Below, piece after piece: positions 2,558-35,285 of a stretch of DNA of 64,000 bases. The stretch spans positions 806,001 to 870,000 of the forward strand of contig JAUHWC010000001.1 of the NCBI GenBank assembly GCA_030424845.1, written 5' to 3'. The notes beneath the pieces were generated by a model that was not told the origin of the DNA, searched no databases, and saw nothing but the letters and a program-made list of their open reading frames with translations. A program made the position numbers and the translations under genes. Each line of letters begins with the position of its first letter. The first letter of the stretch is position 1. The DNA is from Alphaproteobacteria bacterium. Its GTDB lineage: Bacteria > Pseudomonadota > Alphaproteobacteria > Sphingomonadales > Sphingomonadaceae.

Positions 2558-3366
2558 GCCGTCACCTTCCTCAGATGCAGCGGGCCGTAGGTTTCCTCCT
2601 GCCGCAGCTCCGCCTTGCCCATGCGCGCCAGTTCCAGCGCGGCCACGAAGCTGGAGGCAAGTGCCGAACGCTTCAGGCGCGGATCGGCATTGGCCGGCAG
2701 GAAGCTGCGGATCTCCATCCAGTCCACCGACACGCCGAGCATCGCCGACACCCGGTTGATTGCGGATTCGAGCGTCATCACCGGGCGCTCTGCCACCATG
2801 TGCACGACCGGTTCGGTGCGCAGCTTGACCTGGCCATAGGCGCGCACGAGCTGGAACCAGTCACACTGCCACTGGTTCTTGCGCAGCACCTTCAGCCCCT
2901 CGGGGGCACCACGCACGAACACGTCGCGCCCCACCCTGTCGCGCGCCATCAGGCGGGCACCGGCATCGCGCATGGCTTTCAGCCGTTCGAGCCGCAGTTG
3001 CAGGCGCAGTGCCAGTTCTTCCGGGGAAGGATCCTCCTGCTCTTCCTTGGGCAGCAGCATGGCGGACTTGAGGTAGGCGAGCCATGCCGCCATCACCAGG
3101 TAATCCGCCGCGATCTCCAGCTTCAGCGCCTCCGCCCGCTCGATATAGGCGATGTATTGGTCAACCAGCGCAAGGATGGAAATGGACTTGAGGTCCACCT
3201 TCTGCCGCCGGGCCAGGTCGAGCAGCAGGTCCAGCGGGCCTTCCCATCCATCCAGCTCGAGATAGAGCGCGGCATCGTTGTCAGAAGGCGCGGCAGGGCC
3301 CGACCATTCCTCTTCCTGCTGCGATGCGGCCACTTCGCTGCCGAACATGATGCCGTCCTGCGTCAT
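2554..3366 (-). CDS. scpA: Segregation and condensation protein ScpA
   Basis: ScpA, 270 residues, is the kleisin subunit that links the heads of the SMC dimer. The kleisin N-terminus is clear: LELDGWEGPLDLLLDLARRQ (about 36-55) followed by the VDLKSISILALVDQYI helix. The C-terminal winged helix (about 195-262) ends in a short helix typical of the family. The first 30 residues are variable, and a second Met at position 7 is an alternative start. Its ATG overlaps the nagZ stop (ATGA) and its stop overlaps the scpB start. Confidence 0.95.
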   Translation of the reverse strand: MTQDGIMFGSEVAASQQEEEWSGPAAPSDNDAALYLELDGWEGPLDLLLDLARRQKVDLKSISILALVDQYIAYIERAEALKLEIAADYLVMAAWLAYLKSAMLLPKEEQEDPSPEELALRLQLRLERLKAMRDAGARLMARDRVGRDVFVRGAPEGLKVLRKNQWQCDWFQLVRAYGQVKLRTEPVVHMVAERPVMTLESAINRVSAMLGVSVDWMEIRSFLPANADPRLKRSALASSFVAALELARMGKAELRQEETYGPLHLRKVTA

Positions 3367-4379
3367 GCGGCCTCCACCAGCGCCAGCAGGCTGTCGCGCT
3401 TTGCCAGCAGTTCCTCTCGCGCGGCCGGAAGCCGCTGGGCTTCGGGATAGGCAAGTGCCGCATCGAGCCGCTTGGACACTTCTGCTGGCGTGGCGGGCAG
3501 GCGCGCCGCGATACCCTGCATGTCATCCATCTTCGCCCAGCAATTGAGCACCACGTCACAACCGGCAGCAATGGCCTTTTCCGAACGTTCGGGAATGGTG
3601 CCATCAAGCGCCTGCATGTCGATGTCATCGGTCAGCAGCAGGCCGGTAAAGCCGATTTCGCCGCGGATGATCTCGCTGATGATGCGCTTGGACTGGGTAG
3701 CGGGATTTTCAGCATCCCACGCCTTGTAGAGGACGTGCGCCGTCATCCCCATGGGCGCGTGCCAATGCATGCGGAAGGGGGCGAGATCGTGCTGCAATTC
3801 CTCCGCACTGGCAGTGACCACGGGCAGTTCCTTGTGGCTGTCGGCACAAGCGCGGCCATGGCCCGGAATATGCTTGATGCAACCGGTCACGCCCGCCCGC
3901 GCCAGCCCTTCCAGCACTGCGCGGCCAAGCGCGGAAACGCCCTTCGGCTCATTGCCAAGGGCGCGATCGCCGATCACGTCGTGGGCACCTTCGGCCCGCA
4001 CATCGAGCAGCGGGGCATAGTCCACCGAGATGCCGACTTCGGCCAGGTCCATGCCCAGCAGCTGCGCATTGGCGCGCGCCGCCTCGATTGCGCTGGCAGG
4101 GGCGCGGTTCCACAGTTCGGCGAAGGCCCAGCCGGGAGGATAGGCATCCCATTGCGGCGGCTTCATCCGGGCGACGCGGCCGCCTTCCTGGTCTATCGAC
4201 ACGAGCAGCCGCTCGCGCCCGTGGATCGCGCGCAAATCGTCTGTCAGCCGCAACAACTGCTCGCGGTTTTCGACATTGCGGCCGAACAGGATGTAGCCTG
4301 CCGGATCGGCCTCCTTGAAGAAGGCGCGCTCGGCATCGGTCAGGGCAAGTCCGGACAGTCCGAAAATGGCAGGCGTCAT
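3363..4379 (-). CDS. nagZ: Beta-N-acetylhexosaminidase NagZ
   Basis: NagZ, 338 residues, is a cytoplasmic GH3 glycosidase that removes N-acetylglucosamine from anhydromuropeptides during cell-wall recycling. Visible signatures are IDQEGGRVAR (about 62-71) and the catalytic loop KHIPGHG followed by DSH (169-182), whose histidine acts as the unusual GH3 acid/base; the nucleophile Asp is in the LLTDDIDM segment. I place the start at the ATG at 4379 because the protein then begins like its relatives (MTPAIFGLSG) and has normal length. An in-frame GTG at 4427 would add 16 residues without family support. The stop overlaps the scpA start. Confidence 0.93.
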   Translation of the reverse strand: MTPAIFGLSGLALTDAERAFFKEADPAGYILFGRNVENREQLLRLTDDLRAIHGRERLLVSIDQEGGRVARMKPPQWDAYPPGWAFAELWNRAPASAIEAARANAQLLGMDLAEVGISVDYAPLLDVRAEGAHDVIGDRALGNEPKGVSALGRAVLEGLARAGVTGCIKHIPGHGRACADSHKELPVVTASAEELQHDLAPFRMHWHAPMGMTAHVLYKAWDAENPATQSKRIISEIIRGEIGFTGLLLTDDIDMQALDGTIPERSEKAIAAGCDVVLNCWAKMDDMQGIAARLPATPAEVSKRLDAALAYPEAQRLPAAREELLAKRDSLLALVEAA

Positions 4380-31207: not shown

Positions 31208-32707
31208 CTACCCCAACTTGTCCTTGAGGATCTGGTTCACCACCGCCGGGTTGGCCTTGCCCTGCATCGCCTTCATCGTCTGGCCGACGAAAAAGCCGAA
31301 CAGCTTGTCCTTGCCGCTGCGGTATTCTTCGACCTTGTCGGCATTGTTGGCGATGATGGTATCGATCGCTTCCTCGATCGCGCCGGTATCGCTGACCTGC
31401 TTCAGGCCCTCCGTATCGGCGATCTCTTCCGGCTCGCGGCCTTCCTTCAGGACGATCTCGAAGATTTCCTTGGCCTGGCCACCGGAAATCTCGCCGGCAT
31501 CCTGCATCTTGAGGATCGCGGCCTGGCGCGTGGCGGTGGCGTTGCCGGCATCGCCTTCATCGCCCAGCGCCTTGATCACGCCCGGCGCGACGGAAAGCGA
31601 CCAGTTGGCCACCTGCGTTGCTACCTTGGCTTCCGGCTTGCCCAGCGCAGCGGCGGTTTCGGCCAGCAGCGTTTCGAAGCGGGCAAAGGTTTCCACCTCC
31701 GCCGTCAGTTCGCGGGCGTTGTATTCGGAAAGCCCCAGCTCGCCGGTGTAGCGCGCACGCTTGGCATCTGGCAGTTCCGGCAGGCTGGCACGGCATTCTT
31801 CGAGGAAGGCATCGTCCAGTTCCAGCGGCAGCAGGTCCGGATCGGGGAAATAGCGGTAATCATGCGCATCCTCCTTGGACCGCATGGACCGCGTGGTGCC
31901 CGTGTTCGGATCGAACAGGCGGGTTTCCTGCACAACCGTGCCGCCATCCTCGATCACGTCGATCTGGCGCTGCACCTCGTGCTCGATGGCCTGCATCACG
32001 AAACGCACGGAGTTGACGTTCTTCGTCTCGGTCCGCGTGCCAAGTTCGGTATCGCCCACCTTGCGGACGGACACGTTCACGTCTGCACGCATGGAGCCTT
32101 CTTCCATGTTGCCGTCGCACGATCCGACATAGCGCAGGATGGAGCGCAGCTTGCGGATATAGGCGCCAGCCTCTGCGGGCGAGGTCATGTCCGGGCGGCT
32201 GACGATTTCCATCAGCGCCACGCCGGTGCGGTTGAGGTCGACATAGGACATGGTGGGATGCTGGTCATGCATCAGCTTGCCCGCGTCCTGCTCCACATGG
32301 ATGCGCTCGATGCGGATCACCTTGTCTTCCGGGATACCGGCCTTCTCGTCCGCCTCGATCACCAGCTGCCCCTCGCCCACCAGCGGGTGGTAGAGCTGGC
32401 TGATCTGGTAGCCCTGCGGCAAGTCGGCATAGAAGTAGTTCTTGCGGTCGAAGCGCGACCACTTGTTGATCTGCGCCTCGATCGCCATGCCGGTGCGCAC
32501 CGCCTGGCGGATGCATTCGACATTGGGCACGGGCAGCATGCCGGGCATGGCCGCATCGATCAGGCTGACCTGCGCGTTGGGCTCTGCACCAAACTCGGTG
32601 GAAGCGCCGGAAAACAGCTTGGCCTTCGATGTGACTTGCGCATGGACCTCAAGGCCGATTACGACCTCCCACTCACCCGTTGCGCCCTGAACTCTGTAGT
32701 TACTCAT
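31208..32707 (-). CDS. gatB: Aspartyl/glutamyl-tRNA amidotransferase subunit B
   Basis: GatB, 499 residues, is the subunit of GatCAB that activates the misacylated Glu on tRNA-Gln (and Asp on tRNA-Asn) by phosphorylation. The N-terminal cradle domain has [12 protein letters not shown] and the phosphorylation site region [23 protein letters not shown]; the C-terminal Yqey-like domain ends the chain at [16 protein letters not shown]. Its ATG overlaps the TAA of the 46-residue protein, so translation is coupled to gatA through that small gene. Confidence 0.96.
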
Positions 32708-32840
32708 CGTCGATCAGCTTTCCGTCTTTATCGAAACGCGCTTCACCGTGTTTGATCCGTTTGGCCAGATAGGCTGGAATGACCATCGCAACGACGATCA
32801 TCGCTGCGTAGGCAATCTTTTCCAGCGCTTCGACACTCAC
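32700..32840 (-). CDS. 46-residue membrane microprotein between gatA and gatB
   Basis: A small gene locked into the gat operon. GTG at 32840 overlaps the gatA stop (GTGA) and its TAA at 32702-32700 overlaps the gatB start (ATGAGTAA). The product begins [17 protein letters not shown], has one membrane helix (about 9-25) and a charged C-terminal tail with [17 protein letters not shown]. The double overlap makes it likely that it is translated and that it relays ribosomes from gatA to gatB. I know of no assigned function; a purely coupling role is also possible. Confidence 0.75.
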
Positions 32841-34318
32841 CACCACTTCTCCGGCTTCGCGGTAAACCCGGCGCGTTGCTCGATGGCGAGGCCGGCGTTG
32901 AGTACGGCCTGTTCGTCAAACGCGGGGCCGATCAGTTGCAGGCCCAGCGGCAAGCCATCCTTGTTGAGGCCAGCGGGAACGCTCATCGCGGGCAAGCCAG
33001 CGAGGCTTGCGGGCACGGCGAACACGTCATTGAGATACATCGCCAGCGGATCGTCGACATTCTCGCCCAGCGCGAAGGCCGCGGTGGGGGTGGTCGGCGC
33101 GAGGATCACGTCGCACTGCTCGAAAGCGGCTTCGAAGTCCTTCTGGATCAGCGTGCGCACCTTCATCGCCTGCGTGTAATAGGCGTCATAGAACCCGGCG
33201 GAGAGCACATAGGTGCCGATCAGGATGCGGCGCTTCACCTCGTCTCCGAAACCGGCAGCGCGGGTTGCGGCATACATGTCCTGCAAGCCTGCGCCATCGG
33301 GCAGGTCGCGCAGGCCGTAGCGCACGCCATCGTAACGCGCGAGGTTTGACGAGGCTTCTGCCGGGGCGACGATGTAATAAGCGGGCAGCGCATACTTGGT
33401 ATGCGGAAGGGATACTTCCACCACGTCCGCGCCCGCATCCTTCAGCCAGGCAATGCCATCGTCCCAGCTCTTGAGGATTTCCTCGTCAGTGCCGTCCATC
33501 CGGTATTCCTTCGGGATACCGACTGTCTTGCCCTTGAGGTTGGCATCGAGACTGGCCGCCCATGCGGGAACATCCATGTCGAGGCTGGTCGAATCCTTCG
33601 GGTCGAAACCCGACATCGCCTCAAGCATGATCGCGCAGTCTTCGACAGAACGGGCCATCGGGCCGGCCTGGTCAAGGCTGGATGCGAAGGCGACGATGCC
33701 CCAGCGGCTGCAACGGCCATAGGTCGGCTTGATCCCGGTAATGCCGGTGAAGGCGGCAGGCTGGCGGATCGAACCACCGGTGTCCGTGCCGGTGGCGGCA
33801 GGAGCGATACGCGCGGCAACCGCAGCCGACGAACCGCCGGAAGAACCACCCGGCGCCAGCGTGGCATTGCTGCCCCGTGCCTTCCACGGGTTTGCAACAT
33901 TGCCGAAATAGCTCGTCTCGTTGGAGGAGCCCATGGCGAACTGGTCAAGGTTCAGCTTGCCCAGCATGCCCGCGCCAGCATCCCACAGCTTCTGGGACAC
34001 GGTGCTTTCATACTCGGGCTTGAAGCCTTCGAGGATGTGGCTGGCAGCAGAAGTCTGCACTCCCCGGGTGGCGAACAGGTCCTTCATGCCGATGGGCACG
34101 CCGGCCATGGAGCCAAGCTGCTTGCCCGCGGCACGGTCTGCATCGACCTTCTTGGCAGCTTCCAGCGCATAATCGGGCGTGGTGACGATGAAAGCGTTCA
34201 ATTCCGCCGCGTCCGCCACGGCAGCGTTGAAGGCTTCGGCCACTTCCACGGCGGTGAAATCGCCATTGGCCACGCCATCGCGGATCGCCTTGATCCCGAG
34301 TTGGGTAAAGTCAGTCAC
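32837..34318 (-). CDS. gatA: Aspartyl/glutamyl-tRNA amidotransferase subunit A
   Basis: GatA, 493 residues, is the glutaminase/amidase subunit that releases ammonia for GatB. The amidase-signature triad is visible: Lys79 in PIGMKDLF, Ser159 in [12 protein letters not shown] and Ser183 in [10 protein letters not shown]. It begins at GTG 34318, sharing one base with the gatC TAG (TAGTG). Normal length for the family. Confidence 0.96.
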
Positions 34319-34620
34319 TATTCGATCACCTTCGGCACACCAAAGAAGCCATGTTCGGCAACGGGCGCATTGGCCAGGATGGCATCGCGCTTGCCACCGC
34401 CGGTCAGCGGGTCGGCATCGACCACGTCATCGCGCAGGCGCAGCTTTTGCGGGATCACCGCCGTCATGGGTTCGACCGAGGAGGTATCCACCTCTCCCAG
34501 CTGTTCCACCCAGGCCAGGATATTGTTGAACTCAGGCACCATGTGGTCGAGGTCACCCTCGTCCAGGTTGATGCGAGCGAGCGAGGCGATTTTCGCCACT
34601 TGTTCACGGGTTACGGACAT
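34318..34620 (-). CDS. gatC: Aspartyl/glutamyl-tRNA amidotransferase subunit C
   Basis: GatC, 100 residues, wraps around GatA and GatB and stabilises the complex. It has the N-terminal helix [19 protein letters not shown], the [17 protein letters not shown] segment and a C-terminal end with FFGVPKVIE, all family marks. The start at 34620 is taken from homologous length; a much longer reading upstream has no support. First gene of gatC-gatA-microprotein-gatB. Confidence 0.94.
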
Positions 34621-34712
34621 GGCCGGAGCGTTAGCCGCACCCGCGCGGCGCTTCAAGCGGTCAGATGGCGGCGGCGAGGCAATTTCTGCCCCGCCGGCAT
34701 TTCCCCGCGCAA

Positions 34713-35285
34713 CTATTCGGCAGCAGCAGCCTCTTGCGATTGGGCGGCGATCACCTGTTCCATGATGGTGTTGATTTCCAGGCCGCGCTGCATCAGCTGC
34801 TCCTGGTTCATGAACTCGTGCAGGGTGACTTCGAAGGTCAGGTCGGCATTGGGCGGGATCGGCGATCCGGGCTGCGGATTGGGGCCATAGGCAAGGTCGG
34901 AGGGGATCCACACCTTGTAGGTGCCGCCCTTCTGCATCTGCATCAGCGCCTCGCGGAAACCGGGCACCACACCATCAAGTTCCATGAAGCTGCCTTCAGG
35001 GATCAGGTGGGCGATTTCCGGCGGGATGCTGGGATCGCGCGGCTGCGAACGATCGAACTCGGTGCCGTCCTCCAGCGTGCCGACATATTCGACGAACACG
35101 GCATCGCCTTCCTGCGGCGACGGGCCTTCGCCGGCCACGATCTCGTCCACCGAAACGGTGGCCGGACGGGTGGTGAACCAGGCCAGGCCGAAGCCCAGCA
35201 GGACACCGAGCGCCATGCCAAGCCAGAACTTCCACAGGGAGCCCTTGGCGATGGGCTGCAGCGGTACGCGGGTTACTTCGGCCAT
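34713..35285 (-). CDS. FKBP-type peptidyl-prolyl isomerase, membrane-anchored
   Basis: A 190-residue FKBP. An N-terminal membrane anchor (about 17-35) places the domain in the periplasm. The isomerase core (about 55-155) has [17 protein letters not shown], the active-site [15 protein letters not shown] and [19 protein letters not shown] Gln/Glu/Ala-rich helix ends the protein. The MAEVTR start at 35285 is chosen because an upstream in-frame start would add a non-conserved hydrophobic piece. It lies between rpsU and gatC on the same strand. Confidence 0.9.

Follow-up and report, generated by a model that had tools for sequence, protein, structure and literature searches.

Why should a gene for a membrane microprotein stand between gatA and gatB, two genes of one amidotransferase? 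The question arises in a window of 64,000 nucleotides (the whole stretch of DNA that was analysed; positions 806,001 to 870,000 of contig JAUHWC010000001.1, assembly GCA_030424845.1) from an alphaproteobacterium of the family Sphingomonadaceae, in which gatC, gatA, a small frame and gatB follow one another without gaps on the minus strand, the strand of every feature located below. The longest gatC frame (34318-34911) matches PF02686 (9.1e-21, residues 116-192) and TIGR00135 (residues 100-197), and since this homology begins near residue 100, the true gatC start is probably internal. Next come gatA at 32837-34318 (PF01425, 9.4e-146; TIGR00132, 5e-168) and, beyond the small frame, gatB at 31208-32707 (PF02934, 2.3e-118; NF004015, 3e-234). 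The 3' end of gatA reads TGG TGG TGA, with its stop codon at 32839-32837, and the small frame opens GTG GTG GTG AGT GTC, with in-frame GTG codons at 32846, 32843 and 32840, the third of which shares the letters GTGA with the gatA stop. Because of this overlap, and because a GGAG that may act as a Shine-Dalgarno-like signal (32849-32852, within the gatA 3' end) lies 8 nt 5' of the third GTG, a product of 46 residues is the likeliest reading, encoded with its stop at 32700-32840; at its longest it would have 48.

At its other end the frame closes with TAA at 32702-32700, within the gatB start ATGAGTAA, gatB itself beginning as ATGAGTAAC at 32707, and a GGAAAG inside the frame (32718-32723), 10 nt 5' of the gatB ATG, is a possible weak Shine-Dalgarno sequence of gatB. 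An earlier note on this DNA had described both overlaps and the 46-residue length, and the sequence bears it out on each. It had also proposed that the frame might keep ribosomes coupled, and in its strict form this would make the peptide incidental, the frame serving only to carry ribosomes from gatA to gatB; the GTGA overlap with gatA, the ATGAGTAA overlap with gatB and the possible gatB ribosome site within the frame are the arrangement that such a coupler would have.

The first point to settle is whether the frame encodes a protein at all. In a search of 61 genomes, it was found at E <= 5.4e-6 in the genome of the window and in seven others of the genus (78, 65, 68, 64, 54, 53 and 38% identity), free of internal stops and in every case adjoining gatA and/or gatB. 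Across 11 members picked from 48, and over 30 codons (the motif described below and the 24 codons before it), pN was lower than pS in 55 of 55 pairs, which are not independent of one another, are unadjusted for one-residue gaps and include many saturated dS values; between the window and the closest member of this set (G016), dN was 0.16 and dS 1.12. At the motif codons of the 48 distinct members, differences per site reached 0.49 at third positions, compared with 0.04 at first and 0.07 at second positions, a constancy that is partly built in, as these members were picked by the motif. Judged by this comparison of sequences, the frame is a genuine protein-coding gene, conserved and under coding constraint. 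The search for a conserved frame in relatives and the dN/dS comparison that had been proposed beforehand thus found sequence and frame conserved and silent change in excess. A chance open reading frame is rejected on account of the stop-free relatives in seven genomes and of pN < pS, and a signal at the DNA level is rejected because the motif changes at its third codon positions.

Known families offered no identity for the product. The window's microprotein matched 0 Pfam or NCBIfam families; 24 members searched against the same collections gave scattered weak matches (best 0.0047 and 0.012), none above a curated cut-off, and the microprotein profile had no match among solved structures. The idea of a phage or plasmid gene was dropped, searches of phages, plasmids and viral contigs having given no match; PHROGs matches were weak, the best (0.042) linking one of the 24 members with a holin family. 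Likewise, a role in anti-phage defence was rejected, with 0 PADLOC families for the 24 members at E <= 0.1; among neighbouring open reading frames between gatA and gatB in related genomes, PADLOC recognised only mad2 (4 of 64, best 4.9e-9).

The plan of the protein is simple: one hydrophobic helix, predicted at about residues 9-26 (32763-32816) from the sequence and from AlphaFold2, followed by a charged tail that carries the juxtamembrane motif GEARFD (32730-32747), nearly invariant in the alignment and in the codon spectra. With 24 relatives as alignment, AlphaFold2 returned a mean pLDDT of 86.8 and a pTM of 0.47, placing the helix at residues 4-29 of a 47-aa row and short strands at 36-37 and 43-44, so that the tail is modelled, at lower pLDDT, as a small hairpin formed from GEARFD and the following KDGKLI. 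In the 24-row alignment, drawn from junction loci and named loci, GEARF is present in 24 of 24 rows and H32, D38 and G41 in at least 90%, while the helix is very variable; members found later include the exceptions GEMRF, GETRF, GEARI and GEARY. The model and the alignment agree with the single-helix protein of the earlier note, and with 46 residues and one modelled hydrophobic helix the product falls among bitopic microproteins (<100 aa, one hydrophobic helix). The positive residues C-terminal to the helix suggest an N-out/C-in topology with a cytosolic tail, and from the invariance of the motif we read the GEARF(D) tail as most probably the site at which a soluble partner docks.

The distribution of the family was followed by profile searches. 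Within the GTDB family, matches at E <= 0.01 were found in at least 40 of 397 genomes (41 rows); in a sample of the order the profile matched at least 26 of 246 genomes, all within this GTDB family, and in a sample of the class at least 2 of 289, namely the window's own genome and one of the same GTDB family; all counts from the profile searches are lower bounds. Among the 397 family genomes, all 33 rows at E <= 1e-7 sit at gatA-gatB (30 read directly, together with G317, G393 and G162, the last as L143; in four of the 30, only gatB lies within 1.5 kb and gatA further up). The eight weaker rows comprise two at gatA-gatB (a second match of G240, and G126), three two-helix proteins elsewhere (G346, G214, G429), and G289, G074 and G446 (E 0.007-0.008), which were dropped as chance upon reading. 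A degenerate pattern for GEARFD, in which arginine was allowed only as CGN, found 28 sites in 40 genomes of the genus, compared with 5 for the reversed control pattern; 8 of these sites are microproteins, 1 is a membrane protein elsewhere (G036) and 19 are frames of other architecture. In a Sphingomonas locus (L055, around 2734), a GEARFD tail directly follows gatA and no clear transmembrane helix is seen.

So constant a position lends itself to the functional reading that the earlier note had offered, a membrane tether for the transamidosome; the cytosolic GEARFD tail would then bind GatA or GatB and place the complex at the inner membrane. Besides the 33 of 33 strong matches at gatA-gatB, this idea can draw on an unrelated one-helix family, A4, which turned up in seven of 249 genomes and lies at gatA-gatB in six of them, and on the report of yeast GatF from the inner membrane (PMC4027206, as far as its accessible text goes). 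A protein that positions GatCAB might be expected wherever GatCAB is. The junctions themselves were surveyed in a sample of 80 (L106-L185). Of the 37 genomes of the genus that have a GatB match, 35 entered it, all but G004 and G001, whose GatB is partial; from the rest of the family sample came 45 of the 47 genomes that scored best, all but G080 and G247. Both genes are seen at 79 of the junctions, L139 having been dropped as gatA was not within 3.5 kb. The gatA stop and the gatB start lie between -4 and 3089 bp apart, at most 15 bp in 14 of the 79 and more than 60 bp in 65, the values for L152, L157, L159, L165, L166, L168, L174 and L183 being a few bases off, as their gatB start aligned to a non-ATG codon. 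The microprotein is present at 22 of the 79 junctions, 21 recognised by the pattern GE[AMT]R[FI] (8 of the 34 genus junctions and 13 of the other 45) and one, L143, by GEARY, a count that is slightly low since the omitted G080 and G247 both carry it. No weight was given to the AGT or ACT that carriers use as the second codon of gatB, because its T is required by a stop at +8 and the observation is circular; nor were overlaps between gatB and other cargo counted, as ATGA gives a stop in that frame anyway.

These junctions bear on both functional readings of the position. A pure coupler is at odds with the 55 of 55 pairs under constraint and with an almost fixed amino-acid motif whose third positions are free, and also with the survey: 14 junctions manage with 15 bp or less, others hold different genes, and in six carriers (L123, L128, L152, L166, L174, L179) the microprotein lies 170 to 1039 bp ahead of gatB. 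Ribosome coupling may hold for the overlaps in the window and leaves the motif unexplained, and that the peptide is merely incidental strikes us as very improbable. As for the transamidosome, the microprotein is not found wherever GatCAB is, being absent from 57 of the 79 junctions, with other genes standing in its place, and its profile matches at least 40 of the 397 family genomes. Relatives that pair this tail with two helices occur outside the gat genes, and four genomes have one between nuoD and nuoE. When GatA and some 95 residues of GatB were tested, no residue clearly tracked the carriers (best p 0.0003, uncorrected for kinship and matched by 23 of 500 shuffles). A tether is thus not supported by the patchy distribution (22 of 79; 8 of 34 in the genus), the other genes in the slot, the relatives outside the gat genes and the marginal residue association; the fixed position itself can also be accounted for by recombination through the flanks, as set out below, and we regard the tether as unlikely.

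How the carriers are related was followed on a quick tree of 74 rows, built from GatA and the start of GatB, flanking genes that may themselves recombine; five of the 79 junctions, with fewer than 400 residues of GatA, were left out. The carrier label changes 14 times on this tree (the mean after shuffling being 17.7, with 13 of 500 shuffles reaching so low a value), and at least eight of the changes are forced by starred branches. The label is mildly clustered and mostly patchy, and its clustering means that part of the pattern is vertical descent.

What fills the junctions is variable. Among 25 of the 34 Pfam families listed for the 64 gap open reading frames of at least 110 aa, which were called mechanically on both strands and include some that are not genes, there are nine Acyl_transf_3 proteins, five FkbM methyltransferases, glycosyltransferases and two sulfotransferases, and no integrase. 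We take these acyl-, FkbM methyl-, glycosyl- and sulfotransferases to be the kind of enzymes that decorate surface glycans. The 95 gap frames of at least 55 aa form 12 shared clusters and 55 singletons, and a cassette encoding a 122-aa protein recurs both alone and stacked with others. Another small protein with one helix (MRGCLN...IGW) is shared by the gaps of L150, L151 and L143. The microprotein behaves as a cassette in the same sense, patchy in close relatives and with other cargo in its slot. The gatA-gatB junction is an accessory-gene hotspot in this alphaproteobacterial family, and this is probably why the microprotein is found there.

Possible traces of how the cargo moves remain in some of the gaps. 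Fragments of the 5' end of the genome's own gatB occur inside six of the 65 longer gaps (L116, L123, L125, L158, L166, L174; E 4e-20 to 4e-8), five of which (L123, L125, L158, L166, L174) also hold the microprotein; the remaining 59, the window's own included, show no scar at that strength, and 46 gaps from 80 named loci yielded only two, both repeats of L116 and L166. In L125 (gap 1226-1333) there is a chimera, in which a gatB fragment (58 bp, 91%) is joined to a gatA 3' fragment (57 bp, 96.5%, E 1e-23) through seven shared positions (a 7-nt overlap), giving the order gatA, acyltransferase, gatB start/gatA end, 122-aa family, microprotein, gatB. In L123, L143 and L166 the gatB remnant comes directly after the microprotein (in L143 as a weak match, clear by eye), which is the order expected if the microprotein once abutted gatB and a later cassette entered behind it. 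In L123 (gap 139-260) the gatB 5' fragment is accompanied by a gatA 3' part seen by eye only. A KWW-like tail after the L123 gatB remnant, likewise seen by eye and below the BLAST limit, was discarded, and short gatB-like hits in L136 (1e-4) and L143 (2e-4) stand outside the six counted scars.

The gatB fragments and the chimera have the appearance of scars left by cassettes that stacked up through the gatA and gatB flanks. DNA of the form gatA end, cassette, gatB start would recombine by way of the conserved flanks, usually with the incoming cassette replacing the old one; occasionally, illegitimate joining at one end would leave a second cassette stacked on the first, together with a gatB 5' scar. 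This route, read from the six scars, is the simplest account we can give, and if cassettes do travel in this way, the 33 of 33 strong matches at gatA-gatB would be explained with no appeal to a function in GatCAB. We consider it likely, taking these lines together, that the gene encodes a single-pass inner-membrane microprotein with a docking tail, carried as optional cargo of a gatA-gatB hotspot and exchanged through the flanks. A resident gene would presumably use the gat transcript and the ribosomes arriving from gatA.

If the position is a place of storage only, the protein could be a small accessory to some other membrane machine, respiratory or concerned with envelope glycans. The two-helix proteins with the tail GEARFDTRNK between nuoD and nuoE (L229, L230, L238 and L243, in G214, G429, G302 and G089) point in the first direction, and the surface-glycan-modifying kind of part of the junction cargo in the second; against this, the other two-helix relatives read outside the gat genes (L228, L244, L253, L260) have no nuoD or nuoE match, and solved structures contain no match that would name a machine. 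On balance, we think such an assignment rather unlikely. The A4 family leads back towards GatCAB: about 122 aa long, with one helix and PEYR and TG motifs, unrelated to the microprotein and with no Pfam match above cut-off, it is found in seven sampled junctions (L127 at 3136-3501, L124, L125, L129, L130, L116, L179) and also in L287-L292, and it lies beside the GEARFD protein in L125 and L179. Its recurrence keeps a link between membrane and GatCAB alive as a minority reading. In the version that makes most of it, which we think distinctly unlikely, gatA-gatB would be a dedicated slot for swapping membrane-anchored amidotransferase adaptors, and the GEARFD and A4 families would each bring GatCAB, or its tRNA, to a different membrane partner.

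With optional cargo of a hotspot as the preferred reading, the locus adds a membrane-microprotein family with a nearly fixed tail motif, no earlier description of which, nor of a gatA-gatB hotspot in this group, was found in the open-licence literature. In it, accessory genes settle within an essential operon whose genes are closely packed, and the 25 cargo families listed, out of 34, include no integrase; from the apparent scars, some orders of cassette arrival can be read. More generally, a perfectly conserved gene position need not imply shared function, as recombination through the flanks can hold a gene in place.

Several known systems resemble parts of this picture. CydX and MgtS are small membrane proteins of similar size and with a simple helix plan; to our knowledge neither family has a GEARFD tail, and for two members with two helices a Pfam model resembling MgtS scored no better than 0.055, with no family above cut-off. 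Accessory-gene hotspots between core genes, with variable cargo at one fixed core-gene junction, are a known kind. The gatA-gatB junction shares this variable cargo at a fixed place and differs in lying inside a tightly packed operon, in bearing gatB-gatA scars that suggest stacking and in the lack of an integrase among those listed families. Yeast mitochondrial GatF, in GatFAB, is a precedent for an amidotransferase linked to the inner membrane; in the accessible part of its description it is a subunit that resembles GatC and has no specific domain for anchoring in the membrane, which sets it apart from the microprotein (PMC4027206). Closest in genomic terms are Caulobacter, Brevundimonas and Phenylobacterium, in which genes X, Y and Z interrupt gatA-gatB; the accessible text does not describe them as membrane microproteins and reports no scars, stacking or motif, and as in the family studied here, different genes split gatA from gatB in close relatives, a pattern from which the authors infer independent loss (PMC4221894).
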